In this document: positions 5,276 through 63,717 of the stretch, in pieces | Layout: every line of letters begins with the position of its first letter | How positions within the stretch are numbered: position 1 is the stretch's first letter | NCBI GenBank assembly: GCA_012845835.1 | Contig: JABAKD010000010.1 | Coordinates: forward strand, 14,672,734 to 14,736,733 | Direction of reading: 5' to 3' | DNA length: 64,000 nucleotides | DNA from: Undaria pinnatifida | Taxonomy: Eukaryota; Sar; Phaeophyceae; Laminariales; Alariaceae | Position numbers and translations under genes: made by a program | Notes under the pieces: generated by a model | Databases searched by the model: none | Seen by the model: the letters and a program-made list of their open reading frames with translations, nothing else | What the model was told of the DNA's origin: nothing

Positions 5276-5454
5276 TCATTGCTGAACTCGCGCCCTCGCA
5301 ACGGTGTTTGTGAGGAGCTTCGCCGTGAAATTTGGGGCATTAGAAGGAAGCGTGATGCCCGGGCCCTTGAAACGGGGGGCAGGGAGGGGTTCCGTCTTGA
5401 TACGGCGTTTTTTGGGACATCGGGATGGCGAGGATCGTGCTCGAGCGAAGAATT
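5276..5454 (-). CDS. P1 exon C: last coding exon with stop
   Basis: This 179-bp exon follows acceptor GGCAG and begins with two bases completing a codon. It then reads 58 codons to a TGA at 5276-5278. The reading is basic (CPKKRRIKTE), then PRFKG, then FTAKLL near the C-terminus. P2 exon C (54088-54263) aligns without gaps over the first 30 codons, shares RFKG, FTAK and VAR, and stops one codon earlier. Both acceptors are AG followed by AA, which supports the start. Exon B ends in phase 0 while this exon needs one preceding base, so a small exon in the 271-bp gap may be missing. Confidence 0.65.
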
Positions 5455-5725
5455 CTGCCCGAGTGGGTTGGGAAGGGGGAGGGTAAAAAAACCGGCGGGC
5501 GGGGCATCACAATGTAGACTTCACATCGTAGGCACGAATCCGTGGGCAACGGGTCCCCGGACGGTCGGATCCAGCGATGGAAGAGGCGACTCTTGTCATT
5601 GAGTTGTCGCTTGCCCCACGTTAATGTAAGGCTGTATGGTCTGCTACTGCACGATCCTAGGGAAGAAGAGTGCACTCAACAGAACCTTGCTAAACTGTAC
5701 GACCGCAACCAAACGCACTCATCAC

Positions 5726-5982
5726 CTGTTGTCCTTGAGCAGAAGCATCGGTAATTTCCCACGTGGGCCTTTCTTCGCTTGTTTCCGCTGAATTTCGTCT
5801 TCGGGATCGTCTGGCCAGTTCCTTGCGGCGCCTCAACGACAAGGGAAGGCAGAGCTGTTCGGATACACTCGCAACACGCTCCGACCCTCTCGAGGCCGAT
5901 TTTTTGAAGTTGCGAACCCTAAGGTGGGGGGGCTGGCGTGCTGCCGTCACAAAGAATACTGGCCACAATAACAGGAGCAAAT
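5726..5982 (-). CDS. P1 exon B: transmembrane segment and basic tail
   Basis: This 257-bp exon lies between acceptor CCGCAG and donor CAG/GTGATG. Its first two bases complete the Asp codon begun by exon A (GGFW-D). It encodes about 17 hydrophobic residues (LLLLLWPVFFVTAA), a PHL..RNFKKS patch, RGSERV, and a cluster of Arg/Lys (SLRRRKELARRSRRR), then an acidic end (TWEITDAS). P2 exon B (54860-55110) is two codons shorter and about 69% identical over the first 36 residues. Many of the codon differences are synonymous. The plus strand is also open here with its wobble positions aligned, so the strand choice rests on the splice junction to exon A and not on codon pattern alone. Confidence 0.8.
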
Positions 5983-7139
5983 CTGCGGCAAGGGGCACAT
6001 AGACAGGTTGCATTAGTTCCTTGAAGAAGCAGCTAGTTTTGTCGTAGCGAGCGACACCATAAGCAATACTGCAGTAATCTGGCCTGTTGGCATCAAAAAT
6101 TGTTGTGGTCAGAAAGAGACAGATCACTTTCATTTTTGCACAGCTGGGTCATTTCTTTGGTAATAGACAACGCAAAGTCTTTTCTAGCAAAATGCGCAGT
6201 AGAATGGAGTCCTACTCCAGTGTAATCGTACTGCAGCCGGTTGACAATATCACAGGGGAGAGCAGTTACCGCGGGCGAATAGTAAAGAGAAGCGATGCGT
6301 AATGACTGTCTGGAACTGTACCACGTTTCCCGGCATAGATACGACTTCCTGTGCTTGCGGGAAACCCTACATCCGCAATGTGGCGTTAATCTGTGGTCTC
6401 CTGAACACCACCCAAAGAAAAAAAATTGCACAGTTAAACCATCTGTGCACCTATCAAACGATTAGTCCGCCAGTCAATTGCCCACCTATCATGCACACGT
6501 ATCGTCTCAAAACGCTTGGTGCCTCGCTAACCCCTTCAAACTGCACGCAGTTTTCGGTACAAAATGCTTGGATGGTGTGTGGGATCATTGTTGCAGAAGC
6601 ATTAACCAACCGCGTTGCCCGTGCTAGCGACTGGAATAGTGAAACTCTCAGGGAATCTAGTGCTCTGAGGAGCGATCCTGGAAGTCACTCCAATCCTCCA
6701 TGGACGGACTTAATGCAGTGAGATGAGAGGCTCAGATGCAGTGATCCTTGTCTAATTTCAGTCCCAAGAGCCGCAACAGAAGGTCCGTCAGCTGCATCGA
6801 CCGTGCGGTACATTAAGTGTTAAAGCGTGCTTCTTGGACGTGTTTGCGGCGGTTGGTTGCGCCCGCATCGATCAGGTTCTATCTTTTATTCTCCTTTCGC
6901 AACTTGCGGTTCCTGCGCTACAAGGACGACAGCGGTATAGTCTTATGTATCGTTGTGCAAGGTGCATTACAGGACAAAAATAAAAATGTCAACGTTATTT
7001 CACTGCTGTCTCGGCAAGCTCGGTTATGTAGTTGATATCAAGCCAAGCCTTTGCAGGTACTCGTGGGTGTACACAATGTGTAGTCTACATCTACAACATC
7101 GTTTTTCTCTTGAAGGTCGCCGCAGCAACAAGGAGAAAT

Positions 7140-8390
7140 GTGTCTAGCTTCCTGTTCGACGCCGAGTTTTGCTGTCAATTACAACTCCTACGCTAAAGAG
7201 ACGCTACATGCGTTGTATGAGGAACAACAAAATTGCAGGGGGAAAAAAAATGGGCAATGTCCGAAATGTGTTTTCTTCGCCATACTTTTTCTGTCCCAAC
7301 TGCATGACACGCAAAAGGCGACTTCGGATGAGCATTCGAGAACATTATTAATATTCTCGACACCACCAACAACTACGACTGCGCGCGGAAAACCAGCGCC
7401 TGAAACCTCAAATCCGGACTGGCGGGTATCAAGGCAGCAGACACGTGATGATCGACACGCTTTCTCGTTTGTCCAATACGCCCGTCGCTGTCCGTATTGT
7501 CAGCCTTGTAAGTTGCGAGCGACAACGTCAGCGGCGTGCACAGCTTTAGCCGCAACAAGCGAGGGCACCGTTGCACTAGTGACATGCGCTCAACCTCAAC
7601 AGCAGCGACCACAAATAGGGGGCAATAAGAAAGCCGTGGAAGATACGTGGAGGCCACAGCAAAAGCCGAAGCGGTGCTCTCTTTGTCAAACGAAGAGCCG
7701 CAGAGACGAAAACTGCCTCAAGCCAGAGGGTGTGTTTTCGGAGCAGGAGGGCGGTACAACGCTGCTCCGGCAGTAGAGTCTACACAGCCAACGTTGCAGT
7801 CCTCTTAAACGTTTTTACGGGTTTCGCGATGGCGGAGGAATACAAGCCTTTGGACACGTCGGGAAATTATGTCTTCAAGCTCAGGCTCTCACCGGAGGAA
7901 ACGCTCAATGCAAATACCACGGGTACAATGAGGTTGTTTGCAGCGTTCGAAGACACCCTGAACGGAGGAAACTACGTGCGTTTATCGCAGGCTGTGGGGA
8001 AAGAATACGATACCAAGAGAGCGACATTAGCAGCAACGCCCACATGGACAGCGGAGCACCAGGCCACTATCTCAACAGCGAGCTTTCCTCCGCATTGCTA
8101 AGCAGTTTGACTTGCCACGTGGGGTTGAAAAAGCCCCATATCGGATTAGAAATTCGGGAAAACTCGTTATGTAACGTGACTTGCACCGTTACAGTACCGT
8201 CACCAACAATGGCGGCAGAAGCAAGACGTGTCACTACAGTACCAGGCATGAACATTTCCTGGTCTAGGGCGGTATATTCACGTTCTGTGACCACGGCATC
8301 AAACACGAAGCAAGTGCTAGGGCGTGAGTTTAGTTGTGTGTCGCGGTACATCGACAGCATGGCTATGCTCAACGGCACTGCAACTTGAAC
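7140..8390 (+). mobile_element. Remnant of a Ty1/copia-like LTR retrotransposon (gag-pro part)
   Basis: Fossil of an LTR element lying in the largest P1 intron, antisense to P1. Parts seen are a Gln/Arg-rich gag-like region with a zinc-knuckle-like Cys cluster near 7.66-7.72 kb, and an aspartic-protease-like region near 8.04-8.2 kb with a DSGA motif followed by GHYLN, as in stramenopile copia proteases. No integrase, reverse transcriptase or LTR pair is visible, so it is an incomplete, old copy. It is clearly broken, with more than one break. The protease-like motif could be coincidental because the rest of pol is absent. Confidence 0.5.
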
Positions 8391-8399
8391 TGTCAGCGC

Positions 8400-10050: not shown

Positions 10051-10059
10051 TTTCCGAGC

Positions 10060-10330
10060 CATCCCTCGGCAGGGGTGCAGCAAATTCTAAGAAATTTCTG
10101 AGCTTCTAACATGAGGAGCTCAATATCAAACCCGAAGTGTAACTGTATAGTGGCATTCGTTCGCGCGACCCGACCAACAATTACATGCGCTCTAGTCCTG
10201 AAAAGGGATGTATTCGTCAAAGTATCAGACTAACTGGTATAGTAGTTCTTGACTTGAAGAAGAGCTCAACCGGCCAGAAACGTTGAGGCTCGCGAAAAGT
10301 GCAACCCCTATATATCGTGGGATGGCTCAT
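10060..10330 (+). repeat. Dispersed repeat shared with 59050-59320
   Basis: Matches include GAGGAGCTCAATATC and CCCGACCAACA and extend over roughly 270 bp in the same orientation. The two copies sit in different introns of P1 (A-B) and P2 (e-A), so they are mobile or dispersed sequence and not conserved intron. Confidence 0.65.
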
Positions 10331-10958: not shown

Positions 10959-11100
10959 CCCAAAACCCGCCGACGTTTCCGAACATCTCAGCGATCTCAA
11001 GGGGGTCGATCTCCGTGATCTCCTCCAGCGAATTTGTTTCCTGGGCTACCTCCATAGACAGCCAGGCGTACGGGTGCACGACGTCTGCGACACTGTCTTT
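10959..11100 (-). CDS. P1 exon A: PYAWLSME / GNVGGFW exon
   Basis: This 142-bp exon lies between acceptor CTCCAG and donor TGGG/GTGAGT. It is phase 0 at its start and leaves one base (G) for exon B. It encodes an acidic stretch with YAWLSMEVAQE, EEITEIDPLEIAEM and FGNVGGFW. P2 exon A (58194-58338) is 33/38 identical from the shared Pro onward, the best conserved part of the protein, with one extra codon near its start. The junction with exon B restores Asp in both paralogs, placing an acidic residue at the start of the hydrophobic segment. Confidence 0.85.
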
Positions 11101-11494
11101 CTGGAGAGGACAAGGTCACGAGCGACGTATCTGGTTAAGGACAGAACCCAGCACGTTGTTTTCCTTCTCATGTTGGGAACGGGATTTTCCACGATTCACC
11201 GAGGCTGCGGCAGGGGGGGGGGGCACGTTTAGGACTCAACCGGGTGGCGAAGGAGAATTGTTACAGTGCTAACCCGTTTAGAACTGCACCCGCGTTTTGG
11301 GCAGAGACTACCTGTATTCGGAAATAGTATGGAATCATGTTTGCAGTGGATTTCGTTTTTTTTTTGTGATATGCACCGCCGCCAAGGAATTGTTTTTTGT
11401 TCTCAGCGCAAAACAATGTTTTTCAAGGTGTTTTTTTTTTCTAGCGAGGTACAGAGCTATTGACGTCGACGGCAGGGCCCAGTTATATATATAC

Positions 11495-12960
11495 AGTAAA
11501 TCATAAAAAATGAAAATACACTCCAGCTGTGAGATCGAAGATTTCGTCGAAACTCATCTTTGCAAGCTGTGTGTGATACTCCGATCGCGCGCATTACGAG
11601 TTGTGTGTCCTCATTAAGGATATAGGTCGGCGACTCCCCTACAACTACAGTATAGCTATCAGGGTCAACACGGTGATTTTAGTCAGTCTGTGCGCGGAAA
11701 CTAAAAAACCCGTTTCTGAGGGGGACAAAATCTGACAGCTGTGGAGGGAAATGTATCCTTTTATCAAGTGAATCTTGTAAGTCGAATAACCGGTGAGGGG
11801 GGGGGGGCGGAGTTTTGAAGGACGTGGGGGCCTGGTTTTGATCAAAAGCGAGCGGGTTTGGAGGGGGGGGGGGGGGGGGGGGGGAGGGGGGGGCAATTTG
11901 TGCATGTAAGCTATAAATCCTTTCAAGGGGATAAATCTGACGGTTTTGGCAGCAGTTTATTATTGGGGCGGGGGGGTTGGGCGGGGGGGGGGCGTGTGGG
12001 GCAGCTCAATATGTGCGTGGAAACTATACATTATTTTGAGGGGATAAATGTGACGGTGTTGGAAATAATGCATCAGTTTATCATGTATATCCTGGGGTAA
12101 GTCGTACAATCAGTGAGTAGAGAGAGGGTGGAGTGTTCGAGGGGGTGGGGTTGGGATGGGTTGGGGGGGGGGGGGGGGCGGAGGTGGGGGGTGGGGGCGG
12201 GGGGGGCGGGGGGGTGGGGGGGGGGGGGGGGAGGGGGCGGGGGGGGAGCGGGGGGGAGGGGGGGGGGGAAGGAAGGGTTTTAGGTGAGGGGTTTGTTATA
12301 CGTGTGGTGCTAGGTCTAGGCGATGGTGCGGGTGATGGGGAAGAAGGGGGCGTTCGGGGCGGGGGGGGCGGGGAAAGCAGCGGCATGGATGGATCTCGAA
12401 AGATAATGAGGTGATATCCTGTGCGTGAAGTGTTTATTAATCTGGCGGATTTCGATATTTGGTGGGGCGTTTGAGTAAGGGAGAACGAGAGGGGGGGGGG
12501 GAAGATTTTTTGCAGGTGTAGGTCACAAATAATATTCAAATACACTTCGGCTGTGAGATCAAAGATATGTAGGGGCTTGTTATACGCGTGGTGCTAGGTC
12601 TAGGCGATCGTGCGGGTGGTTGGAAAAGAGGGGGTGTTGAAGGGGGGGGGGGTGGAGGGAAAAGAATTGAAAACTACGTCATGGATGGTTAGAAAGATAA
12701 TGACGTAATCTCAACTGCGTATAGGTGTTTATTACTCTGGCCGATTTTGATTGTGAGTGGGGCGTTTGGACAAACTAGGCGGAAGGGGGGAGGGTTGGGG
12801 TTTTTCATGAACAAGAGGGATCAGGGGAGGGGGAGGGGAGGGGGGGGGGGGGCAGGGGGCGGGGCATTTAAATATGTGCGCGGAACCTATAACTCCTCAA
12901 AGGGGACAAACCTGACGATTGAAGCAATGAGACATCCCTTTATATCATCTGGCTTGTAAT
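11495..12960 (+). mobile_element. G-tract element, copy 1
   Basis: It starts with the shared terminal module (ATACACTCCAGCTGTGAG, then CTTTGCAAGCTGTGTG) and continues with several diverged subunits carrying GGGGATAAATCTGAC or GGGGACAAA. Long G runs and a block sharing GTGGTGCTAGGTCTAGGCGA separate them. No protein is encoded; the Gly- or Pro-rich open frames are products of the G runs. The copy lies in P1 intron e-A. The family recurs at 30.5, 32.5, 40.6, 48.5 and 61.7 kb. Confidence 0.75.
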
Positions 12961-14102: not shown

Positions 14103-14163
14103 CTTGTCCTTGTATATAGCGGATGAGGTTGCTACAGCCTGGTACGATGCGGTGTCATCAGCG
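14103..14163 (-). CDS. P1 exon e: TASYQAV exon
   Basis: This 61-bp exon follows acceptor CAACAG with one base completing a codon. It encodes 20 residues (TASYQAVATSSAIYKDK) and ends at AAG/GTCAGC. P2 exon e (60270-60330) is also 61 bp, 11/20 identical, with synonymous differences at Thr, Val and Ser codons. The GTCAGC donor is weaker than the GTGAGC of P2. The exon needs two bases from the preceding exon, yet exon d ends in phase 0, so an exon between d and e is not yet found. Confidence 0.6.
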
Positions 14164-14616
14164 CTGTTGATGTGATTCTCCTTCGTTAGCCCAATCCCCT
14201 GAATGCATCACCACAAAGCACAGAGATATGGTGTATAAAATGTTGGTTCTTGCCTTTCGTTTTTTCTGGTATCCAGATATCCTTCCACTCCATAACTAAT
14301 GGGACTTAATCTTGTCGTATGACTTCCGTACTGGGGGAACAGCAACAACATTAGTGACGATCGTTTGCAGGGAACGGCGAGCGATCATGGACTGATAAGG
14401 CCTCGACCAGCTCATAGCTTTCAATTTCTCCCAGAGTCAGCTTCTTCGAATGAATACTGGAACTAGGCCGAACAAAAAAGGCAGCCACAAATACCAACCC
14501 GCATTACAGCGAAGACCTCATTGCCCTCGGGTTTCTGCCGTCTGCCGATGCGATCGTGAGGAGGGGGGCCTACCACGTGCTCGAAAAAACAGTTGACAGA
14601 AACTTTGAAATATACA

Positions 14617-15556: not shown

Positions 15557-15671
15557 CACGTAGTTGAAGACATGGCTGGTGGACGCGTTCGTGACGCAAG
15601 TGTAAGCCACTTGGATACCGGCCGACGGAATGTTGCTGTCTACGTCGCGAAAATGGATGAATACGCTCTCG
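15557..15671 (-). CDS. P1 exon d: ESVFIHFRDVD exon
   Basis: This 115-bp exon follows acceptor TCACAG. Its first base completes a Ser codon begun by exon c. It encodes 38 residues with FRDVDS, SAGIQVAYTC and NASTSHVFNYV, and ends at GTG/GTGAGT. P2 exon d (60840-60954) has the same length and is 20/38 identical, keeping RD.D, SAGI, the Cys and SH.F.Y. The pattern of alternating hydrophobic residues suggests beta strands, which is inference. Confidence 0.8.
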
Positions 15672-15911: not shown

Positions 15912-16380
15912 GAAAAACGACGAAACTAAATCGCCTAAAAAGTAATACATGGTCTACATCAATTGAAACCCTACGCCAGGCTCATCCCTTCTGCTTCACC
16001 GACATGAACGCCCGACGCGAAGTAGATGCAGTAAAATAAAATCCACGCCCATTTGTTTGTGGATTATAGCTATTACTATTAATTGTTGATGCTCGCAATG
16101 TCACATAGACGTGTGAAGCGCCTACCTTTGAGATTCCCACGCGCCCTCCAAAAACGAGGAAACTAAATCGCCTGAAAAGTAATACATAGTCTACGTCAAT
16201 GAAAACCTACGCCAGGCTCATCCCTTCTGCTTCACCGACATAAATAAACGCACAACGCGGAGAGATGCAGTAAAATAAAAGCCACGCCCCTTTGTTTGTA
16301 GATTATAGCTATTGTTGATGCTCGCAGTGTCACATAGACGTGTGAAGCGCCTACCTATGAGATTCCCACGCGCCCTCTTC
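15912..16380. repeat. Tandem duplication of about 235 bp in P1 intron c-d
   Basis: Units 15912-16150 and 16152-16380 are near-identical, sharing GCTCATCCCTTCTGCTTCAC and CATAGACGTGTGAAGCGCCT. The first unit ends with a copy of the 3' end of exon c and its donor, so the duplication took in the exon border. Only the second unit lies beside the complete exon c. Confidence 0.85.
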
Positions 16381-16431
16381 GTTGATGCACGTATCCGAAC
16401 CGTTTGCGCTCCCGCCCGGGTACCAGTACAT
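16355..16431 (-). CDS. P1 exon c: MYWYPGGSAN exon
   Basis: This 77-bp exon follows acceptor CGCAAG. It encodes 25 residues (MYWYPGGSAN, then TCINEEG and WESH) plus two bases, with donor AG/GTAGGC. P2 exon c (61489-61565) has the same length and 22/25 identical residues. About 50 bp upstream of the acceptor are also alike in both copies and open in frame (YTALRL), so the true exon might start further upstream in both. Confidence 0.75.
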
Positions 16432-17224: not shown

Positions 17225-17341
17225 TTTCGAGCGTGCGCGCGCGCTGGAGATACTATGAATGGTTATTATAGTGTGCTCCTGAATACTACTGACTGTAGTA
17301 CGTGGCGAGGCGAGAGCCCCGAAGATTCCTGATACGAAGTC

Positions 17342-18036: not shown

Positions 18037-18120
18037 GTTGAGTAGGATGTAGTCCTCTGGATTTCGTTCGCCCTCGGTAATGATTATCTCCGACGCAGCG
18101 AAAGAAACGCACCAACCTCT
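18037..18120 (-). CDS. P1 exon b: WCVSFAASEI exon
   Basis: This 84-bp, phase-0 exon lies between acceptor GCGCAG and donor AAC/GTGAGC. It encodes 28 residues with WCVSFAASEI, GERNPEDYILLN. P2 exon b (62970-63053) has identical length, 21/28 identical residues, and the same AAC/GTGAG donor. The flanking introns are not similar beyond the splice sites, a sign of selection on the protein. Confidence 0.85.
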
Positions 18121-21707: not shown

Positions 21708-21896
21708 CTGGCCCGTATGAAGCACGCCGACTTCGAGCTCTTGCCTATCGTCCCCGTCTTTATTGAAGATTGCCGTGGAATTTCCTCCCTCTGTGCTGTG
21801 CGCCGAGCGTGTGCAATTCTCCAGCAAGCTGTCGTCGTCACACCCGTAGAAGTTGTACGTGCACACATAGATGTCCGGGTATTTGTATGCGTCATT
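21708..21896 (-). CDS. P1 exon a: YKYPDIYVC exon
   Basis: This 189-bp, phase-0 exon lies between acceptor TTTGCGGCAG and donor CAG/GTGACC. It encodes 63 residues with YKYPDIYVCTYNFYGCD, HSTEGGNSTAIFN and four Cys. P2 exon a (63529-63717) has exactly the same length and is about 35/63 identical without gaps; all four Cys fall in conserved surroundings (YVC, GCD, E.C). The stop codons that close the frame lie outside the exon borders in both copies. Confidence 0.85.
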
Positions 21897-30519: not shown

Positions 30520-31075
30520 ACTAGTATAAATTAAAATACACTCCAGCAGCTTAGCTGTGAGATCGAATATTTTGTCGAAACTCATATTTGCAAGCTGCGT
30601 GTGATACTCCGATCGCGCGTATTACGGGTTGTGTGTCCTCATTAAGAATATAGGTCGGCGACTCCCCTTGCAACTACAGTGTAGCTATCAGGGTCAACAG
30701 GGTGATGTTAGTCAGTCTGTGCGCGGAAACTATAAGACCCGTTTCTGGGGGGGACAAAATCTGACAGCTAGCTGTGGAAGGAAATGCATCAGTTTATCAA
30801 TTGAATACTGTAAGTCGAATATCCGGTGAGGGGAGGCCGGAGTTTTAAAGGACGTGGGGGCCTGATTTTGATCAAAAGGGGGGCGGGAGGGGGGGAGGGA
30901 GGAGAGGGGACGGGTGGGGCAGGTCAATTTGTGCGTGGAAACTATGAATCCTTCTTGTGGGAGAGGGGAGGGGAATGTGCCGGGGGGGGCGGGGGGCGGG
31001 GGGGGAGGGCTTTAGGTCGCACAGATGTAGGGGTTTGCTATACGCGTGGTGTTAGGTCTAGGCGATGTACTATAA
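30520..31075 (+). mobile_element. G-tract element, copy 2 (short)
   Basis: The terminal module (ATACACTCCAGC, CTTAGCTGTGAGATCGAA, GATACTCCGATCGCG) is followed by one GGGGGACAAAATCTGACAGC subunit, G tracts, and the TACGCGTGGTGTTAGGTCTA block. It is shorter than copies at 11.5 and 32.5 kb, having lost subunits. Confidence 0.75.
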
Positions 31076-32470: not shown

Positions 32471-32477
32471 AAAAATT

Positions 32478-33802
32478 AAAATACACTCCAGCTGTGAGAT
32501 CGAATATTTCGTCGAAACTCATCTTTGCAAGCTGTGTGTGATACTCCGATCGCGCGCATTACGGGTTGTGTGTCCTCATTAAGGATATAGGTCGGCGACT
32601 CCCCTTACAGCTACAGTGTAGCTATCAGGGTCAACAGGATGATTTTAGTCAGTCTGTGCGCGGAAACTATAAAACCCGTTTCTGAGGGGGACAAAATCTG
32701 ACAGCTGTGAAGGGAAAGGGGGGCCTGGTTTTGATCAAAAGCGAGCGGGTTTGGAGGGGGGCGGGGGGGGGGGGGGGGGGGGGGGAAGGGGCAATTTGTG
32801 CATGTAAGCTATAAATCCTTTCGAGGGGATAAATCTGACGGTTTTGGCACCAGTATATTATTGGGGGCGGGGGGGGGGGGGGGGGGGGGGGGGGGGTTGG
32901 GGCGGGGGGGGGGGGGGGGGGCAGCTCGATATGTGCCTGGAAACTATACATTATTTCGAGGGGATAAATGTGACATTTTTGGAAATAATACATCAGTTTA
33001 TCGTGTATATCCTGGGGTAAGTCGTACAATCAGTGAGTAAAGAGAGGGTGGAGTGTTCGAGGGGGTGGGGTTGGGATGGGTTGGGGGGGGAGGGTGGGGG
33101 GTTGGGGCGGGGGTGGGGGGTGGGGGGGGGTGGGGGGGGGGAAGGGCTTTAGGTGAGGGGTTTGTTATACGTGTGGTGCTAGGTCTAGGCGAAGGTGCGG
33201 GTGATGGGGAAGAAGGGGGCGTTCGAGGCGGGGGGGGGGGGGGGGAAACAGCGGCATGGATGGCTCTCGGAAGATAATGAGGTGATATCCTGTGCGTGAA
33301 GTGTTTATTAATGTGGCGGATTTCGATATTTGGTGGGGCATTTGAGTAAGGGAGAGCAAGAGGGGGGGGGGGGGGATGATTTTTTAGGAGGTTTAGGTCA
33401 CAAATAATATTCAAATACACTTCGGCTGTGAGATCAAAGATATGTATCAGCTTGTCATACGCGTGGTGCTAGGTCTAGGCGATCGTGCAGGTGGTCGGGA
33501 AAGAGGGGGCGTTCGAGGCGGGGGGGGGGGGGGGGGGGAACACAGCGGCATGGATGGCTCTCGAAAGATAATGAGGTGATATCCTGTGCGTGAAGTGTTT
33601 ATTAATGTGGCGGATTTTGATATTTGGTGGGGCGTTTGAGTAAGGGAGAGCAAGAGGGGGGGGGGGGGATTTTTAGGAGGTTTAGGTCACAAATAATATT
33701 CAAATACACTTCGGCTGTGAGATCAAAGATATGTAGCAGCTTGTTATACGCGTGGTGCTAGGTCTAGGCGATCGTGTAGGTGGTCGGAAAAGAGGGGGCG
33801 TT

Positions 33803-36735: not shown

Positions 36736-36834
36736 ATTAGATATAAAAGTATCTACTGCTGAGCTGTGCTGTTTTCTTCGTCGACTCCGAACGGTTTTTA
36801 ATCTATCTCAATCTAACGCACAGACTTGTCACCT

Positions 36835-36847
36835 ACACTACTACTAC

Positions 36848-36887
<40 letters not shown>

Positions 36888-36903
36888 GCTACTACTACTA
36901 CTG

Positions 36904-36961
<58 letters not shown>

Positions 36962-37002
36962 TACTACTACTACTACTGCTACTACTACTACTACTACTAC
37001 TG

Positions 37003-37033
<31 letters not shown>

Positions 37034-40618: not shown

Positions 40619-41178
40619 CCCCCCCCCCCTTTTTTTTTCCCGCTCTCTCTTGCTCAAACGCCCCACCTAATATCGAAATCCGCCAGAGTAATAAACACTT
40701 CCACGAACTGGATATCATCTCATTATCTTTCTAGAGCCATCTATGCCGCCGCTGCAATCCTCACCCCCCCCCCGCCCCCAACGCCCCCTCCCTCCCCACC
40801 ACCCGCACCATCGCCTAGACCTAGCACCACGCGTGTAGCAAACCCTTACATCTATGCGACCTAAAGCCCTTTCGCTCCCCCCCCCCTCCCCCCCTCCTCC
40901 CCCACCCCCCACCTTCCCACCCCCCAACCCCACCCCCACCCCCTCGAACACTCCGCCCTCTACTCACTGATTGCACGACTTACAGGATATACATGATAAG
41001 CTGATACATTCTTTCCAAAAACGTCACATTTATCCCCTTAAATGAGGTATAGTTTCCACGCACAGATTGAGCTGCCCCGCCCATCCCGCCGCCCCCCCCA
41101 TGATAAACTGGTGCATTCTTTCCAAAACCGTCAGATTTATCCCCTTGAAGGATTTGTAGTTTCCACGCACAAATTGAC

Positions 41179-41212
<34 letters not shown>

Positions 41213-41605
41213 CCCCCCCCTCCTCTCCGCCCCCCCACCCCCGCTCCCTTTTGATCAAAACCAGGCCCCCACGTCCTTCAAAACTCCGCCCTCCCCTCAC
41301 TGGTTATTCGACTTACAGGATTCACTTAATAAACTGATGAATTTCCTTCCACAGCTGTCAGATTTGGTCCCCCTCAGAAACGGCTTTTATAGTTTCCGCG
41401 CACAGATTGACTAACATCATCCTGTTGACCCTGATAGCTACACTGCAGTTGCAAGGGGAGTCGCCGACCTATATCCTTAATGAGGACACACAACCCGTAA
41501 TACGCGCGATCGGAGTATCACACACAGCTTGCAAAGATGAGTTTCGACAAAATATTCGATCTCACAGCTGGAGCGTGTTTTTATTTTTATAATATCATAG
41601 ACTAT
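40619..41605 (-). mobile_element. G-tract element, copy 4 (minus orientation)
   Basis: C tracts separate subunits carrying CAGATTTATCCCC and GATTTGGTCCCCCTC. It ends at 41520-41600 with the terminal module (CTCACAGCTGGAGCGTG). The junctions CCACATAT/C-tract and CATAGACT/ATACAGGG, compared with CCAAATATACAGGG in the other copy, fit an insertion into an AT-rich site. The outer end is worn, without its own terminal module. Confidence 0.75.
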
Positions 41606-44449: not shown

Positions 44450-46705
44450 ACTAAAGCGCTGGGCAGAAAATAAAGGTGCAAGGGAACGCAGGGAACAAAG
44501 GGAGGGGCTCCAGAAAAGGTGGCACCCGAACTGGGGAAGAGGAAAACGTGCACACTGCAGGATACCAACCAGCAACTGAATCTATGTGCTTAAGACGCAA
44601 TAGGCGTGGGTAATGGAGCACGAGAAAGGTAACATCTGAGCCAAGAACAGTCATGCACATTGCTGTATACCAGCCATCGATTAAAACGTTGTGCTTGGGA
44701 CGCATGGACGTGGGTAAAGACGCACCAGAAAAGGTAGCACCTGGACTGAAAACAGGACACGTGCACTGCAGGATACCAGCCAGCGACCTGAATATCTGTG
44801 CTTGGGACGCATGTGCGTGGGTAAAAGGTGCATCAGACAGGGGGTAACCGAAGCGAGATAACACGTAAGCAAAAAAAAACAAGGAGAGTGAAAGGCCATA
44901 CCGAATAATGAAAACGACAAAATTACAGCAACCCTGAGGGCTCCACAACTGAAACAACGAAATTATAGTACACCCTGAAGGTGGAAAAACTCATTAGGAA
45001 GACAAAAACACAGAAAAAAAACATAAAAAACTGAGCTGTGGTTGACGCTAGTGTACCGACATACGAAGGGGGGATAGAGGGAGCTCCGCAGGGCCCGTCA
45101 GCATTGCGTAGGGACACCGCGAGCCAGTCTCTCGGCCTGATGACGCTGAAGGTACCAGGACCCGTGGACACGCTCCGTGAAGTGGCGTAAAATGATGGCA
45201 GGAGGTCGATCTTAATCGGTCCGGGGTCATCGAGGAAGCAGACGATACAGAAGTTGGTGGAAGAATTGTCGGTCAAGGGCAATGGGCTAATTTGCCCAAC
45301 CACCAGAGACCGTCGCGGGCGTTGTACCAGAGGTGTGCTCCCGCGGGGAGGGTTGTGGAGCTGAAGCGTTAAAGCTAGCATGTGCGTGGGACAAGGCTGC
45401 ACCCGGGAGCGAGAAATAAATCGCCCAGGTTCCGCGCTAGTTCGTGGTGAGCAGTCCCGATGCGCATCTGTTGATATAAGGGGTTGGACTGGCGGTGTTG
45501 TGAAAGGGTGCCAAACCAACAGCGGAGGATGTGAAGCCGGTGGTGTCGTAGGTCTTGTTCGTGTTCCCATGAAAAGCTGAGCAGTCCGGACCAATGGGTC
45601 CGCGAGAAAGCCTCCCCGGCCGCGAACGAGTTGATGTCCCAAGATCTGGGCGACCTCGAGCCGTTCCGGCGGTGGAGAGATGTCGTCGAGGGTGACGTGG
45701 AAGGACGGAGAAGAAGGAGTTGAGTACGTACTTCATGAGGTCGGCCGGAAGGGGCTTTTGGTTTGTCGTGGATGTCGTCTGGGTTCCGGCATGGTTTGCA
45801 GCGGAGATTGGAGATACGAGGTTTGGAGTCGCGTCCGGGCATGTCGGACGAGAGGTCGACGTACAGAAGCTTATCGTGAAGGGGCCGACCATCCGGGGCG
45901 GCGGAGGCCGGTGCTGTGCCTACGGCGAGGATCTTGAAGGGGCAGATCCAGTTGAAGGATAGCTGGGTCTTGAGAACGATGGCGTCGGTGCCTTTCCTAG
46001 CGCCTTGGTGAATGATGGCGGCGGAGCTGTAGACCCACGCCCAACCGTTAACGGAGAACGGGGGTAATAAGCGGAGGGTGTCCATGAGGGGAGCGTTTGC
46101 GGCGGTCGAGACGCGATAGGTAGATGGCGTGTAGTTCCCGGACGGCGCGGTAGGCGCGTTATTAGCGGGCGGTGGCGAGTTCGATGTAAGCTAGCTGGTC
46201 CCGGTTGAGGCTTTGGTGTCCGCCGATGTTGGGGAGGCCAAAGACTGTAAGGGAGAGGCGGGGGAGGCGGCCCATGTGCACCTCGTTGGGCGGCAAGTCC
46301 GGTGCGGCTGCGCTGACGGAGTTGTTGCACGCGCTCTCGACCTGTGGAAGTTGAATATCCCAGTCAGTTTGTTGTCGTCGCCGACCATGGCGAGCATAAG
46401 GGCCAGGGTGTGGTTGACACGCTCGACACCGCCGTTGGTGCACTGGTGGTAGGATCTGGTGGCAATCTTATTGATGCCGAGGCGGTCGTAGAGGGCGAGG
46501 GAAAGTTTGGAGCAAACCTGCAGTCCATTCGCGGAAAGTAGAGTTACGGGGCATCCCCAGAGAGGGATATATCGGTCAACAAGGATGTCGGCCGTGCCGG
46601 AGGCGGTGAACTTACAACACCCTCTAGTACGTACCTTAAAAATGGCGTCGTCGGCTGAACTGAACCTGCGCGTGGAATCACAATGGGCATAGTTTGAACC
46701 CACGC
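44450..46705 (-). mobile_element. Remnant of a Ty3/gypsy LTR retrotransposon with chromodomain
   Basis: Fossil on the minus strand. Parts in order are an integrase core (about 46190-46705, with the typical TLLSANG and YHQCTNGGVERVNHTLA words), an integrase C-terminal region (about 45750-46090, NW..PFKILAVG), a chromodomain-like region (about 45480-45720, RGRGG and THWSGLL), and a downstream region with a tandem repeat. Reverse transcriptase, protease, gag and LTRs are not seen in the window, so it is 5'-truncated. It is broken, with several breaks, and of middle age: the domains are still easy to read. The chromodomain places it in the chromovirus-like branch of Ty3/gypsy. Confidence 0.85.
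44513..44846. repeat. Three tandem units of about 112 bp
   Basis: Units share CAGAAAAGGT.GCACC, CACTGCAGGATACCA.CCAG, TGTGCTT..GACGCA and GCGTGGGTAA. They lie downstream of the chromodomain part of the gypsy remnant and are probably part of its 3' non-coding region, though they could be an older host array. Confidence 0.8.
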
Positions 46706-48479: not shown

Positions 48480-49012
48480 AGCACCTATTTAGAGCGTGCC
48501 CCCCCCCCCCCCCCCGCCCCAACCCCCCCCCCCCCCCCCCCCCCCCCAATAATATACTGGTGCCAAAACCGTGCAGATTTATCCCTCGAAAGGATTTATA
48601 GCTTACATGCACAAATTGCCCCTTCCCCCCCCCCCACCCCCCCCCCCGCCCCCCTCCAAACCCGCTCGCTTTTGAATCAAAAAAACCAGCCCCCCCCTTC
48701 CCTGCACAGCTGTCAGATTTTGTCCCCCTCAGAAACGGGTTTAATAGTTTCCGCGCACAGACTGACTAAAATCATCCTGTTGACCCCGATAGCTACACTG
48801 TAGCTGTAAGGGGAGTCGCCGACCTATATCCTTAATGAGGACACACAACTCGTAATGCGCGCGATCGGAGTATCACACACAGCTTGTAAAGATGAGTTTC
48901 GACGAAATCTTCGATCTCACAGCTGAAGTGTATTTGAATTTTTATAATATTATAAAAAAATGAAAATAGAGTAAGATCGAAGATTTCGTCGAAGCTCATC
49001 TTTGCAAGCTAT
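48480..49012 (-). mobile_element. G-tract element, copy 5, with head-to-head ends
   Basis: C tracts and CAGATTTATCCCTCGAAAGG subunits lead to the terminal module ending CTCACAGCTGAAGTGTA (about 48935). Some 25 bp later a second, opposed module (GTAAGATCGAAGATTTCGTC, CTTTGCAAGC) follows to 49012. Two ends thus face each other. Confidence 0.75.
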
Positions 49013-52850: not shown

Positions 52851-52856
52851 AGTTAG

Positions 52857-53225: not shown

Positions 53226-54085
53226 ATGCAGCTGCGTCGTAGCCAACAGCAGAAGGTGTAAAAACAGTTGGAGGCTGATGTTGCACAGCGGGCGAAAGAT
53301 CGGAGCGGGTAAAAAAGAATGAGCTGAGCATGCTGTCGAAAAAGAACAACGAAATGTGGGGTTTTCTATCCACACCTACTGGATTCAATGAGGCAGAAAG
53401 CAACCCCGTGAAAACAAGAGCCAGTTCAGCGACGTTGAATGCTCAGAGCACCGCCACGGAGCTCAGCCGGGATCCCGACGTGCCTCATAATGTAGCGAAG
53501 TCCAATTTGATGGCCCCGCAGCCGAAAGTGCGATAAAAAACCTCGACCGCCGGAGAACATCATGTGCCTAAAACAAAAGCTGCATAGTTTACATAGAAAT
53601 ATAAATGCCACAGTGTTATTCGGTGTATACATTATCGGTGACAACCACGTGCGTGTCGGATCTTCTTGCTCGTCAACGGGTAATTCGCGCGACGAACAGC
53701 AACAACAACGGCAACAACAATCTTCCCGTGCCACATCGTCAACTCGCGCTGGCCTTTGCATGGTGAGGCCCTATTTTTACCCCTTCTTCAGCTTTGGTAC
53801 GTACGGTTGCTGTCTTGACACAATGGGCTGGTGCTTTCATTCCTCGTGCCTTCCCTTAAACTAAGAAAACCTGTGGGAGTAATAAAGCTACACGACGTAC
53901 CAGGGAAGTACGTAGCATCTACATCAAACACCGTGTCGGGAAGAAATCTCAACATGCTATCCCTGTTTATACCGTGAAAACAGCGGGCATTTGACTACTG
54001 TCAGCGCCTGCCGTCGGCGCCACACGCAGCAGTATTGGTGGCTCCATGGGGTTCCGATCAGGAGGTGCTCTCGCAAGCGGCTGCC
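53226..54085. other. No gene seen; 3' flank of paralog P2
   Basis: Open stretches on both strands (for example 53426-53761 minus, CAA/GTT-rich) have no motif. No polyadenylation signal is assigned. Confidence 0.5.
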
Positions 54086-54087
54086 CT

Positions 54088-54263
54088 TTATTGGTTGTTG
54101 ATTCTCGGGGCGATTCTGGCGACGACCTTAGCCGTGAAACTTGGGAGGGCAAAGGGAGACGCATCACCCCTGCCCTTGAAACGGAAGAGGAGTAGGCGCT
54201 CCGTGTGGATGATGCGTCTCTCGAGGCGCGCGGATAGCGAGGGTCTTGTTCGGGCGGAGGGTT
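54088..54263 (-). CDS. P2 exon C: last coding exon with stop
   Basis: This 176-bp exon follows acceptor TATGTAG and starts with two bases finishing a codon, as in P1. It reads PSARTRPSLS, ERRIIHTERLLLFRFKG, SFTAKVVARI and ends in TAA at 54088-54090. Its alignment with P1 exon C is gapless for the first 30 codons. Confidence 0.65.
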
Positions 54264-54859: not shown

Positions 54860-55110
54860 CTGCTGACGAGAAGAAGCATCGGTGTCCTCCCACGCAGGTC
54901 TTAGGTCGCCTGCAACCGTGGTTCGTTGCCGAGCCTGTGCGATCAGATCCCTGCGACGTCTCAAGGACAAAGACATGCGGACTGGTTGCGAGAGGCCTAC
55001 CACGCGCTCCGACCCTCTCGCTATTGACTTTCTGAAGCTTCGAGCCTTTAGATGGGGGTCCTCGCGAGTTGCCGCAACAAAGAATATTGGCCACAATAGG
55101 AGGAGCAAAT
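54860..55110 (-). CDS. P2 exon B: transmembrane segment and basic tail
   Basis: This 251-bp exon lies between acceptor CCGCAG and donor CAG/GTGCGC. It reads LLLLLWPIFFVAATRE, PHLKARSFRKS, RGSERV and SLRRRRDL, ending AWEDTDASS. Its first two bases complete Asp with the last base of exon A, as in P1. Conservative exchanges against P1 (V/I, K/R) fit a conserved membrane anchor with positive-inside flank. Confidence 0.8.
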
Positions 55111-57372: not shown

Positions 57373-57374
57373 CT

Positions 57375-58193: not shown

Positions 58194-58338
58194 CCCAGAA
58201 CCCACCGACGTTGCCGAATATCTCGGCGATCTGAAGGGGGTCGATCTCCGTGATGTCCTCCAGCGAATTTTCTTCTTGAGCTATTTCCATAGACAGCCAG
58301 GCGTAGGGGCTCGTGATTCCTGTGATGCTGGCGTCCCT
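58194..58338 (-). CDS. P2 exon A: PYAWLSME / GNVGGFW exon
   Basis: This 145-bp exon lies between acceptor CCTTAG and donor TGGG/GTGAGT. It reads SPYAWLSMEIAQEENSLED, ITEIDPLQIAEIFGNVGGFW. It is one codon longer than P1 exon A, the extra residue lying before the conserved block. Confidence 0.85.
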
Positions 58339-58794: not shown

Positions 58795-59320
58795 TCCTCT
58801 GGTCTTATCTTAGACCACCAGAGCAGAGGGGCGCCGACTGGCTCAAGGATAGTAGATGGCCTAAGACATTTGCACGACGGTGACCGTGATGGGGTGGGAT
58901 GCTCGAGGCGTACCAGACGGAAACGAGATCAACGAATACCAAAGGTAGGTACGCCCTTGGGAGACACCATCAATGTCTTGGTACGAGAGGGATCTCCACT
59001 ATGCTATGTCAGGAGCTGTCTTGGAACGAGAGGGGTGTCCACTATACGTGGACAGCCATCCCACGCTAGGGGTGCAGCAAAAGATTCTAAGAAGTTTCTG
59101 GGCTTCTAACTTGAGGAGCTCAATATCTCACCCGAAACATGACTTCGAAGATGTTCGTTCGCGCAACCCGACCAACACTTCTATGCGCTGGCCCTAAAAC
59201 AAGTTCGCTCTTGAAAACATCATGCTAATCGATAGTTCGCATTTGAGGAACTAAACCGGCCACGTATACCTCTTCTTGGCTCAAATAGTGCCACCCCTAC
59301 CGGGGGGTGACCCTGGAGCA
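58795..59320 (+). repeat. Dispersed repeat in P2 intron e-A
   Basis: The right part matches 10060-10330. The left part (CAGAGGGGCG.CG.C.GGCT, then GATGTCTTGGTACGAG-like words) matches 59835-60110. No coding sequence was recognised. Confidence 0.65.
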
Positions 59321-59682: not shown

Positions 59683-59790
59683 GTGCTACGATAGAGGTAG
59701 CACTTCTTGGCGAAATATATTTTGTCAAATGACGAGGGCTCGTTACCCCGAGCAACCCACATTTTGTATCAGGAGCCCCTTGATTCATCT
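59683..59790 (+). mobile_element. MITE end fragment
   Basis: It begins GACGCGTGCTACGATAGAGG, as in the full MITE copies, and keeps a CAGGAGCCCC.TGATTCA word, but about half of the element is missing. Confidence 0.6.
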
Positions 59791-59834
59791 AAGACATAGG
59801 TTTGTTCAACGGGTGCAGTTCGACTAACTGCTTT

Positions 59835-60110
59835 TTCTGGTCCTAGATTGTGCCACCAGGGCAGAGGGGCGTCGGCGGCTGGCTTGAAGTTATAGAATGG
59901 CCTAAGGTGGTACACTGACTCGGTGAGCGTGAGCCTAATGGGAATGGAGAAGATGCTCGTGGTGTACCAGGCGGGAATGTAAATAATGAATAGTAAAAGT
60001 GGATGTGTAAATAATGAATAGCAAAGGTGGATACGTTTGTGGGGTTTAACACCGATGTCTTGGTACGAGGGTGATATCCACTATGCTTGCGCATGGAACA
60101 CGCAACGCGC
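59835..60110 (+). repeat. Second copy of the 58795-59060 repeat
   Basis: It shares CCACCAGGGCAGAGGGGCG, ATGGCCTAAG, GATGTCTTGGTACGAG and ATCCACTATGCT. A short internal doubling (GTAAATAATGAATAG) is present. Confidence 0.6.
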
Positions 60111-60269
60111 GCGTTCACAACAAGCCACCCCGAGAAAACGCTACATACAACAAGACACGATGTTGGTATCGTCCGGAAGAACCTTTGAAAGCACACCCAA
60201 CGGACAGAAGCTTCGCTTAGAGTCCTTGGGCCCTCAGCGTCGACCTAGCGATCTAGAACAACAGCTCAC

Positions 60270-60330
60270 CTTGTCCTTCTCAAGGGATGATGACATTGTC
60301 ACAGCCTTGTACGATGCCGTGTTGCCGCTC
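60270..60330 (-). CDS. P2 exon e: TASYKAV exon
   Basis: This 61-bp exon lies between acceptor AAACTCAG and donor AAG/GTGAGC. It reads SGNTASYKAVTMSSSLEKDK after one base completing a codon. It has the same length and phase as P1 exon e. Confidence 0.65.
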
Positions 60331-60839
60331 CTGAGTTTATTATCTTTTGTGAGTCCAATCCCCTGGATACACCATAGACGCATAGTTGAGTCGTAGCGGT
60401 AACCGTGAACTATTTCGGTGACTGCACCTTTTTTTTAAACACCTTTCAGTTGCAGCAGCTTTGAAGGGGGGGACACGAATCATGTTCTATACTATTATGA
60501 CACAAACACCTCTGTCATGTCACAATGAAGACTCAACATGCGCTAAGATACATGTAGCACTTCTTGAGTGTTCGTTTTTTCCTGAGGTAGCCTTCCATTC
60601 CTGAAGAACTTCTTGTGCTGTGACTACGGACTTGATTATGGCGATGGCGAGTTATTTTGAGAACAACAACAGCCACCCCGGGACAACGAGCCCTTCCATG
60701 TGAGACGCCGACTTTCTGTGTTTCTCGATGGGGTGTTCTGATTTCGAATGATCCCATTCAGAGTTACATCACCACCAACCCAAACATTAGGGAACGCCAA
60801 GAACGATGGTGTACTGAGTGAGTCGTACGGGTGGCTCAC

Positions 60840-60954
60840 CATGTAAGCGAAGGAATGGCTGTTGGACGCACTCGTTGCGCAGGAATAAGGCACTCGAATG
60901 CCGGCCGAATAGTCGCCTGTGTCTGCGTCACGCAAGGTGACCAATACGCTTTCG
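60840..60954 (-). CDS. P2 exon d: ESVLVTLRDAD exon
   Basis: This 115-bp exon lies between acceptor CGTGGCAG and donor ATG/GTGAGC. It reads ESVLVTLRDADTGDYSAGIR, then VPYSCATSASNSHSFAYM. The single Cys is shared with P1. Confidence 0.8.
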
Positions 60955-61488
60955 CTGCCACGGCGACATCAACAACGGAAGACACGAGATGATTCAGCTA
61001 ATGGACTAAACTCTCTAACTCGTGGGGTAGAGGTGTCATCTCACAGAACACTCTCCTGATGACCAAGGCTACGGTGTAGTGTTATACTAGTCACTTTTAG
61101 GGCCGTCCATTTCAGACATTCACGACCTCCCCCGTGAATGTCTACCCTGCAGTATTACTTTGCAAGTCGTACGTAACATCGTTGTGTCGTTGCTTTTATA
61201 ATATGCGCTGCGCCATGCCATCGTTTGTTAACAAATTTTCATGTTTTGTAGCAAGGTACAGCGCGGCCCATACCTGGTAGCCAAAATGAGTGTACTCCCT
61301 CTACCGCAGGTCGGGTTAGATGTGAATGAAATAAAACCCGCGCAGCCCCAGGTTTCTTCGAATGAGCTCTGCATCGCGTACACATATGCAAAGCCGTATA
61401 GCTACCACAACAGAATAAGCACCACACACACGTTGTAATGATGCTCGTATGTGCCACAAGGTTGGGAGCTGGGGAAAGCGTGTCGCAC

Positions 61489-61565
61489 CTGTGAGATTCC
61501 CACTCGCCCTCCTCGTTGATGCACGTGTTTGAAGCGTTTGCGCTCCCCCCCGGGTACCAGTACAT
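61489..61565 (-). CDS. P2 exon c: MYWYPGGSAN exon
   Basis: This 77-bp exon lies between acceptor TTCCGAAAG and donor AG/GTGCGA. It reads MYWYPGGSANASNTCINEEG and EWESH. The open frame also continues upstream (YTALRLRHLFRK), leaving the exact start uncertain, as in P1. Confidence 0.75.
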
Positions 61566-61714
61566 CTTTCGGAAAAGATGGCGGAGTCGCAACGCGGTAT
61601 AGCGACGATTAGCATGCACTTCGTCAAAAGTAGTAAACGCTCTATGGCAGAAGTGGAACGTATGATTTCCCGGCGTCTATCGACACCAAAATGCGCGCGT
61701 CATCGAGGTGGCGA

Positions 61715-62500
61715 TACACATATTTCATACCCCCCCCCCCCCCCCCCCGCTCCCTCTTGTTCAAACGCCCCACCTAAATTCAAAATCTGCCAGAGAAATA
61801 AACAAAACCAGGCAGTTGATATCACCTCATTACCTTTCTAGCCACCCATGCCGTAGCTCCAATGCATGCCCCCCTTACCACCCCCCAACGCCCCCTCCTT
61901 CCCCACCACCCACACCATCGCCTAGACCTAGCACCACGCGTATAGAAAGCTCCAAACTGATATACATCTAAGCGACCTGAAGCTGTTGGAAATCACCCTT
62001 CTCCCCCCCCGCCCTTCGAACACTCCGCCCTCTCTTCACTGGTTGTACGACTTACAGGATATACACGATAAACCGATGCATTCCTTCCACAACCGTCAGA
62101 TTTGTCCCCTTAAAGGAATTAGTTTCCGCGCACAGATAGAGTTGCCTCGCCTGTCCCCCCCCCCCCGCTCCCTCTTGTTCAAACCCAGGCCCCCACGCCC
62201 TTAAAAACTCCGCCCTCTCCTCACCGGTTATACGACTCACAGGATACTTGATAAACTGATACATTTCCTTCCACAGCTGTCAAATTTTGTCCCCCTCAAA
62301 AACGGGCTTTATAGTGTCCGCGCACACACTGATTAACATCACCCTGTCGACCCTGGTACAAGCTACACTTTAGTTCCAAGGGGAGCCGCCGACCTTTATC
62401 CTTCATGAGGACACATACCCCGTAATACGCGCGATAGGAGTACATCACACACAGCTTGCAACGAAGGATCTCACAGCTGGCGTGTACTTTTATTTTTATA
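61715..62500 (-). mobile_element. G-tract element, copy 6
   Basis: C tracts alternate with CAGATTTGTCCCCTTAAAGG and CAAATTTTGTCCCCCTC subunits and the CGCCTAGACCTAGCACCACG block. The terminal module ends at about 62440-62500 (CAGCTTGCAACGAAGGATC, CTCACAGCTGGCGTG). It lies in P2 intron b-c. Confidence 0.75.
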
Positions 62501-62567
62501 ATGTATGTTATAGATATCGATAGCACATCTCGCTTCCATGGAAGTGTTACAGTAGTGTTGGACACAC

Positions 62568-62832
62568 ACATGTGCTACGGCAGAGGTGCACCCATGTGTT
62601 TTCTGAGGCTCCTAACCATTTGGAGAGGTCTACATTATACCTTTCTTAACCCAAAAACTGCCTTGGGGGGCAAAAACGAAAGTGAAAATCGACTACCATG
62701 GCCTAGGTATGCAAAATATCTACATTGTGCAAAAAAAACAAAGAATGACATCGCGACGATTTGGAGTTAGTAGTCCCGTGTTTCAGACAACAAACTTGCT
62801 AAAAGTGATGCCTATTTTGGTATAGAGTGTTT
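62568..62832 (+). mobile_element. MITE copy, diverged
   Basis: It opens TGTGCTACGGCAGAGGTGCA and keeps CTTAACCCAAAAACTG and GCGACGATTTGGAGTTAG. The right end (GGTATAGAGTG) is worn. It directly follows a G-tract element in P2 intron b-c. Confidence 0.65.
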
Positions 62833-62969
62833 ATAGAACGGCGGCGAACGTCGACAAACCAATTGCAGATTCACCGCAAACGCGCGTGAAATCTCGCTCG
62901 TAGTTTTTCAAGCCCTTTGAACACGTACGCTACACCTGGTGTTTCTGTAGTATTGTTCGAGCTCCTCAC

Positions 62970-63053
62970 GTTTAGTAGAATGTAGTCTTCTGGATCCCGC
63001 TCCCCCCCGAAAACAACTATCTCCGAAGCAGCGAAAGAAACGCACCAGGCTTT
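62970..63053 (-). CDS. P2 exon b: WCVSFAASEI exon
   Basis: This 84-bp phase-0 exon lies between acceptor GTTGCAG and donor AAC/GTGAGG. It reads KAWCVSFAASEIVVFGG and ERDPEDYILLN. It has the same length and the same donor word as P1. Confidence 0.85.
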
Positions 63054-63528
63054 CTGCAACGAGGGACATGACGCAACACAACAGAGACGCGGTCATACGC
63101 ATGCACCGTGGGTGCTTCCTTAATCGAGGCAAAAGTGGGTGACTCGCTGCTTTAGGCGCGTTGTGGCAGATGCAACAACGCCCTCCCCGCGTTACTCGCC
63201 GAACATTTCACGGCGCTTCGCGTGGAGCACGCGATGACTGCCTAGTCGGTGAAAACCCGACGTGCTCCGTCCAGGCGTTGTACGGATGATGCTAGGGTCT
63301 ATGGTCATACGACTACGGATACGCATGAAATAACTAAATCTCCCCCCTCCACCACATTGCCGAGGCATTGGGCGCGAGCGCTGGCGTCGGGAGGGGGGTT
63401 CCAACTTTAAGTCACGTGTCTACCTATCCAACACTCCCTGCGAAGCATCTATCATCTATGCTGCGGTCAACCATTGGTTTACAACAACGTTTTCCGCCCG
63501 CACGACCAAAGGAGCAAGTGGGAATCAC

Positions 63529-63717
63529 CTCTTCCGAAAATACCGCGTCAACTTGAAGTATTTGCTCATCTTCCCGGGTCGGATTGTATATTGCTGTAGA
63601 CCTCCCTCCCTCCGTGCTGTGAGTGGAATCCCTGCACTTCTCCTCCAATTCCAGCGTGTCACACCCGTAAAAGCTGTACAAGCACACATAGATGTCCGGG
63701 TACTTGTACACATTGTT
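63529..63717 (-). CDS. P2 exon a: YKYPDIYVC exon
   Basis: This 189-bp phase-0 exon lies between acceptor CGCCACAG and donor GAG/GTGATT. It reads NNVYKYPDIYVCLYSFYGCD, EEKCRDSTHSTEGGRSTAIY and DAVFSEE. The distance to exon b is only 475 bp, against 3.6 kb in P1, where repeats have enlarged the intron. Confidence 0.85.

Follow-up and report, generated by a model that had tools for sequence, protein, structure and literature searches.

A 64,000-nt window of the genome of the kelp Undaria pinnatifida (contig JABAKD010000010.1, positions 14,672,734–14,736,733, forward strand), which is the whole stretch of DNA analysed here, carries two neighbouring multi-exon loci on its minus strand. These loci, referred to below as gene 1 and gene 2, are real paralogous genes, and they belong to an uncharacterised brown-algal family whose structural models have the ENaC/ASIC/PAC channel fold. 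There is a good chance that the two genes encode subunits that fold like the DEG/ENaC-ASIC/PAC channels and would likely form trimeric cation channels opened by an outside stimulus. Judging by the models, the family as a whole is probably a divergent offshoot, confined to brown algae as far as seen, of the DEG/ENaC-PAC channel fold and a putative trimeric cation channel.

Protein anatomy and predicted fold

Read from their sequences, the proteins comprise a short start, a first hydrophobic stretch (TM1), ~230 residues, a second hydrophobic stretch (TM2) and a variable basic tail; in gene 1 the two hydropathy peaks start at residues 16 and 281. The topology predicted from the hydropathy peaks and the models, for which we infer the membrane orientation of the two helices, places them around one large extracellular domain. 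Six cysteines (63, 70, 79, 118, 157 and 193 in the numbering of the relative P0001) are invariant in all alignment rows that have letters there (31, 31, 31, 34, 38 and 39 rows, respectively). TM1 is followed by Y/F-P-D-x-x-x-C, a variant of F-P-x-x-T-x-C, whose Pro, Asp and Cys are found in 31 of 31 rows and which is covered by the match to the ASC profile described below. The most conserved stretch of the protein is TM2 with its signature GNxGGFWDLLxLWPxFFV, in which G279, G282, G283, W285 and L287 (P0001 numbering) are present in all 39 rows and D286, W292 and P293 in 38 of the 39.

The two membrane helices, the single large cysteine-bearing extracellular domain and the predicted fold are shared with the DEG/ENaC/ASIC/FaNaC channels. 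After TM1, the kelp proteins carry Tyr-Pro-Asp-x-x-x-Cys in the place of the Phe-Pro-Ala-Val-Thr-x-Cys of ASIC1 and ENaC, and at TM2 they carry G-N-V-G-G in the place of the G-D-I-G-G of ASIC1. They differ from DEG/ENaC in the length of the extracellular domain (~230 residues), which is shorter than that of ASIC1, and in its six invariant cysteines.

The predicted models match the fold of the ENaC/ASIC extracellular domain, and they match the PAC fold too. Among the matches listed (50 rows in each of four lists) there was no other fold, and the scores dropped sharply below this group. The best Foldseek E-values belonged to PAC/ASOR chains (7.1e-10 and 1.8e-9); the best VIA match was PDPNaC1, and the VIA Z-scores for PAC (11.6 and 11.4) were tied with those for ASIC/ENaC. 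P2X was absent from the same lists and from the Pfam matches, which excludes nothing.

Sequence signals and the nature of the putative channel

The only recurring Pfam family was ASC (PF00858), matched at E ≤10 by 11 of the 40 members and, in single scans, by 11 of 26 proteins, with E-values from 2.7e-4 to 0.13; any other family was matched by one member at most. Where its place was reported, the match lies at the TM1 end (profile positions 15–106) in P0001, P0011, P0016, P0021, P0024, P0025, P0035, P0039, P0043 and gene 1 (13.4 bits, E 0.039), and at the TM2 end (394–442) in P0020 and P0034, P0001 having a second matching stretch. The A3 consensus matched ASC with an E-value of 0.0059, more weakly than P0001 alone, and the reversed consensus gave no match. 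The exon a-to-C peptides without TM1 matched no Pfam family for either gene, and an NCBIfam scan of five proteins returned one weak match to an adhesin model (E 0.061). When aligned by hhalign with ASIC1 and ENaC alpha, gamma and delta, the family gave its best local alignment at the approach to TM2 (E 0.01, 31% identity over 35 columns), where a GGxxGL-like segment falls on ASIC GDIGGQMGLF, and the second best in the TM1/FPAVTxC region, with an E-value of 0.093; the score was 29.4, as against 13.1 for the reversed control.

Several results weigh against the channel assignment. Every member stays below the curated ASC cut-off of 23.6 bits, the best being P0001 with 20.5 bits (E 2.7e-4), and 29 of the 40 have no ASC match at E 10. 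Sequence searches of PDB found no channel, giving instead a Sulfolobus filament (E 2.3) and threonyl-tRNA ligase (E 1.4, 1 and 2.3). No hhalign probability exceeded 4%, and the global mode gave no meaningful alignment. The Foldseek TM-scores are low (0.25–0.49, with root-mean-square deviations of 6–13 Å), the top Foldseek rows are PAC, which is an anion channel, and the two structure models were built on one alignment and so are not independent. The G/S-x-S filter is absent at the aligned place, where Gly-Ala-Ser falls on Leu-Leu-Trp when the hhalign register is extended without gaps; a Ser-Ala-Ser found 8 residues deeper in seven of the 39 TM2 rows occurs in neither gene 1 nor gene 2. There is also no His-Gly (HG) motif before TM1 in gene 1, and within the first 40 residues HG was found in two of the 40 rows, both with odd N-termini. 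The absence of HG would not be decisive, because the centipede channel PDPNaC1 is also without it: according to the available part of its report, PDPNaC1 conducts without a canonical HG and keeps a Gly-Ala-Ser that is not its filter (PMC12714832). Scoring below the ASC cut-off and lacking the G-x-S at the aligned place and, in gene 1, the HG motif, the kelp proteins differ from DEG/ENaC, and we do not assign them to that family as canonical members.

Sequence alone would not settle the question of homology. In our judgement, the fold, the topology and both end segments together make homology to the ENaC/ASIC/PAC channels likely. The models point to a place within the wider ENaC/ASIC/PAC fold group, and these proteins probably work like one of those channels. 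A coincidental resemblance, in which a beta-rich extracellular domain with two helices merely recalls a channel to which the family is unrelated, would fit the weak sequence statistics and the PDB searches without a channel; we consider it very improbable, given that no other fold is found among the matches listed, that the scores drop sharply below the group and that the sequence signals appear at both ends in the right order.

It is also possible, if unlikely, that the family is closer to PAC/TMEM206, that is, an acid-opened, chloride-passing channel of the same fold group with a small extracellular domain. The similarly short extracellular domain, the overall fold and the best Foldseek E-values are points of likeness to PAC/TMEM206/ASOR, and the VIA Z-scores are level. 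However, the sole recurring Pfam family is ASC, the GGxxGL-like segment aligns with ASIC, and TM2 of the family, unlike that of PAC, has an Asp that is conserved in 38 of 39 rows. In PAC, a pore lysine is what determines the preference for anions. Pfam includes a TMEM206 model, and this profile was not among the families matched by the 40 members at E 10. The evidence on ENaC-like versus PAC-like character is mixed: Foldseek leads to PAC, VIA gives a tie, the profile leads to ASC and the TM2 Asp suggests cations.

A somewhat more doubtful alternative is that the proteins keep this fold but have lost conduction and serve the cell surface as structural subunits or as receptor subunits, as might be suggested by the bulky Leu/Trp in place of GxS and by the lack of HG in gene 1. 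The strong conservation of TM2 would be hard to explain without a role in the pore or in assembly, and a centipede DEG/ENaC channel is described, in the accessible part of the report, as conducting without HG and with a GAS that is not the selectivity filter (PMC12714832).

If the proteins are cation channels, three subunits would come together around a pore lined by TM2, the conserved Asp in GGFWD may favour cations, and the extracellular domain would be the sensor, with protons, salt, stretch or a peptide as candidate stimuli. Paralogues could perhaps mix in one channel, as ENaC subunits do. Because neither the G-x-S filter nor the HG gating motif is found where it normally lies, the ion selectivity would be expected to differ from that of ENaC.

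Structure and divergence of the two genes

The first-pass annotation of the window had described eight exons in the same order on the minus strand at both loci. That order and strand hold, as do the lengths and splice borders (AG acceptors and GT donors in both copies) of six of the exons, namely a (189 bp in both genes; 21708–21896 in gene 1 and 63529–63717 in gene 2), b (84 bp in both; 18037–18120 and 62970–63053), c (77 bp in both; 16355–16431 and 61489–61565), d (115 bp in both; 15557–15671 and 60840–60954), A (142 and 145 bp; 10959–11100 and 58194–58338) and B (257 and 251 bp; 5726–5982 and 54860–55110). In gene 1, exon a carries the YKYPDIYVC block and the first cysteines of the extracellular domain, exon c the MYWYPGG block, and exon A the stretch from PYAWLSME to GNVGGFW. 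In both genes TM2 starts in exon A, and exon B supplies its remainder (DLLLLLWPVFFV in gene 1) and the basic tail. Agreeing phases and open frames had been claimed for all eight exons; this was true of these six and failed for e and C as first given.

Exon e, first given as 61 bp in both genes (a length only, the position being inferred in the present analysis), was rejected in that form: it breaks the phase chain, and in gene 1 it would bring a stop codon directly behind exon d, whose end is in phase 0. Taking an acceptor that lies 35 bp earlier in gene 1 and 32 bp earlier in gene 2 gives in-phase exons of 96 bp (14103–14198, phase 0 to 0) and 93 bp (60270–60362), and the residues gained (GIGLTKE) occur in both P0001 and P0003. 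Likewise, the 179- and 176-bp versions of exon C were discarded, as their frame cannot be entered from exon B. In the phase-0 frame, exon C is 291 bp long in gene 1 (5164–5454) and 297 bp in gene 2 (53967–54263), and both copies end with FTV-stop. This frame is supported by the recurrence of related ends in 8 of the 40 family rows: FIV in P0001, FMV in P0028, FTV in P0032 and LTY or VTY in five Ectocarpus rows. Such C-terminal ends resemble PDZ-binding ends.

The listed exons did not cover the full extent of gene 1. With P0001 as a guide, we found two further 5′ exons, which supply TM1: x2 (31346–31267, 80 bp), encoding the N-terminus KPAEVVPQHKCRAVVLFSGLILAIFG and the start of TM1, with 25 of 26 codons as in P0001, an AG acceptor and a GT donor; and x3 (23760–23693, 68 bp), encoding the end of TM1 and YQAVEAYKNPNTSFALS, with 19 of 23 codons as in P0001, AG/GT borders and phases that fit x2 and a. 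Gene 1 accordingly reaches 31.3 kb of the window and spans ~26 kb; the mini-exon with ATG TG expected upstream of 31346 was not found. Gene 2 has its 5′ exons beyond the window end. In the rebuilt chain the phases after a, b, c, d, e, A and B are 0, 0, 2, 0, 0, 1 and 0, and the frames are open over ten exons in gene 1 and eight in gene 2, with GT-AG at every border.

In a blastn comparison the two genes align collinearly in exons A, c, B, b and a (E 5e-38 to 2e-12), while the similarity of exons d, e and C was seen by translated comparison only. A dN/dS (the ratio of non-synonymous to synonymous substitution rates) near 1, which the first-pass annotation had named as evidence against real genes, was not seen: the Nei-Gojobori estimates over 411 codons were 0.806 for dS and 0.293 for dN, a ratio of 0.364. 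By exon the ratio ranged from 0.10 to 0.48, and it was 0.341 for the core up to 25 codons past exon A. Differences at the first, second and third codon positions numbered 55, 49 and 89 over the 258 codons of this core and 26, 18 and 35 over 84 codons of exon B. Exon C is weakly constrained, because its differences are near even (40, 35 and 41 over 94 codons; dN/dS 0.477). The reported drop of identity outside the exons was confirmed, and similarity running evenly through the introns, named in that annotation as another sign against real genes, was not seen, with no blastn match at E 1e-3 in six of the seven intron pairs; the remaining pair, between b and c, gave two short matches of 31 and 46 bp. 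Pseudogenes or chance similarity, rather than expressed genes, might be suspected from the long, repeat-rich introns and because none of the 50 records of relatives is an annotated protein nearly identical to gene 1. Such an origin is extremely improbable in view of the frames open across ten and eight exons with GT-AG everywhere, the dN/dS of 0.36, the common FTV end and the spliced-looking relative P0001.

The 50 bases before exon c are identical at 39 positions between the paralogues, those before exon A at 31 and those before the other six exons at 13 to 24. The conserved stretch before exon c (up to 16481 in gene 1; 61565–61615 in gene 2) is open in frame with this exon and is not present in the P0001 or P0003 proteins. 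A 229-bp tandem duplication at 15913–16377 begins 23 bases before the end of exon c in gene 1, which places a copy of the splice donor further down the intron. A dispersed repeat with G-rich runs, 68 to 96% alike, was found at 11485–12160 and about ten more places (e.g. 30528–30953, 32471–33080, 40929–41588, 48508–49010 and 62006–62517), in introns of both genes and between them, and 67 CTA triplets form a run at 36833–37033. A match between 10057–10191 and 59054–59189 was considered as an exon and dismissed, being out of order and having an inverted copy at 20.4 kb. ARAGORN found no tRNA genes in the window.

A brown-algal family

Three protein searches yielded 50 records of relatives (32, then 9 and 9 new ones), some of them fragments. 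Every organism-named record is brown algal, coming from Undaria (by model name), Laminaria, Ectocarpus, Scytosiphon, Hapterophycus, Pylaiella or Ascophyllum, and none of those named lies outside this group in searches that depend on 5-residue words in common and score no more than the top 6800 to 7997 candidates; in this restriction, as far as seen to date, the family also differs from DEG/ENaC. One Ectocarpus siliculosus record (P0031) is named 'expressed unknown protein'. Undaria contributed six models (P0002, P0003, P0008, P0013, P0017 and P0023) in addition to gene 1, from scaffolds 10 and 17.

That the two loci are genes overlooked by single-frame calling of open reading frames is supported by both P0003 and P0001. 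P0003 (jgi Undpi1 1052, HiC_scaffold_10.g04515; we take the prefix Undpi1 to denote Undaria pinnatifida) reproduces the gene-2 peptide exactly over exons a to B. P0001, with 467 residues encoded on a contig of 2006 bases, is collinear with the whole of gene 1 at 74% identity (25/26 residues in x2, 19/23 in x3, 55/63 in a, 24/28 in b, 21/26 in c, 33/38 in d, 28/32 in e, 38/47 in A, 60/86 in B and 50/96 in C). This contig is best explained by a spliced transcript from a related kelp, because 2 kb holds the full frame for which gene 1 takes ~26 kb of DNA. In a tree of 30 rows, gene 1 groups with P0001 (100/100) and gene 2 with P0003 (100/100) and then a Laminaria protein (99/97); these groups form one clade of seven rows with P0008 and P0002 (100/100).

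Kelp gene models can err where exons of <150 bp sit among long repeat-filled introns. Past exon B, the P0003 model skips the true exon C and continues into pieces at 46.5 and 45.1 kb (45051–46523), which have a retroelement-like look and contain what we take to be an integrase-like block. The model of the neighbouring paralogue P0008 (jgi Undpi1 1050, scaffold 10) runs on as GGFWGES... without TM2, as if exon A had been read beyond its donor. Elsewhere, EsV-1-7 cysteine-rich repeats (P0034) and a FUT8-like piece (P0026) are joined to family members, representing either fused models or real fusions, and the Ascophyllum proteins P0015 and P0029 share a related extra C-terminal stretch, LLPAKT[FY]LV[KE]VPTN, not seen in the kelp genes.

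In animals, DEG/ENaC channels serve touch, acid, peptide and salt signals, and to our knowledge such channels were hardly expected in the brown-algal group. No report of them in brown algae appeared in the titles or abstract starts among the literature matches listed, which mostly leave subscription journals outside and do not establish absence from print. A survey of diatom Ca2+-permeable channels, with U. pinnatifida among the species covered, does not have ENaC, DEG or ASIC as whole words in its available part (PMC11085791), and in PMC7935092 the single match for ENaC falls in the word 'enacted'. Portions of a 2023 survey of many protist groups place Deg/ENaC homologues beyond the animals in Tunicaraptor and in Cafeteria roenbergensis, a heterokont; its candidates from non-holozoans belong to one stramenopile species and one alveolate species, and it finds gene loss and lateral transfer not distinguishable (PMC10507113). 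The C. roenbergensis homologues, compared here by description only, are likewise from a stramenopile and belong to the same channel superfamily, but they cluster with animal channels, and the same portions of the survey name no brown alga (PMC10507113). The centipede channels PDPNaC1 and BRTNaC1, of which the former is the best VIA match and is HG-less like gene 1, differ in being animal channels, and PDPNaC1 in retaining Gly-Ala-Ser, as far as the accessible text describes them (PMC12714832).

We regard it as reasonably probable that the family represents an unrecognised brown-algal branch of the trimeric ENaC/ASIC/PAC channels that has been duplicated repeatedly, bears a distinct pore signature (GNxGGFWDLLxLWP, without a GxS filter) and has diversified its extracellular sensors. 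A many-gene, fast-diverging family of this kind would bring a whole multicellular lineage into the question of loss versus transfer, and, if the assignment is true, the fold would be older than animals or would have moved outside them. Going by the models, it is likely that seaweeds possess an expanded set of ion channels of their own, gated from outside the cell. The family offers concrete candidates for the sensing of surroundings by seaweeds and, if the assignment is true, the independently multicellular brown algae would possess a sensory channel toolkit parallel to that of animals.

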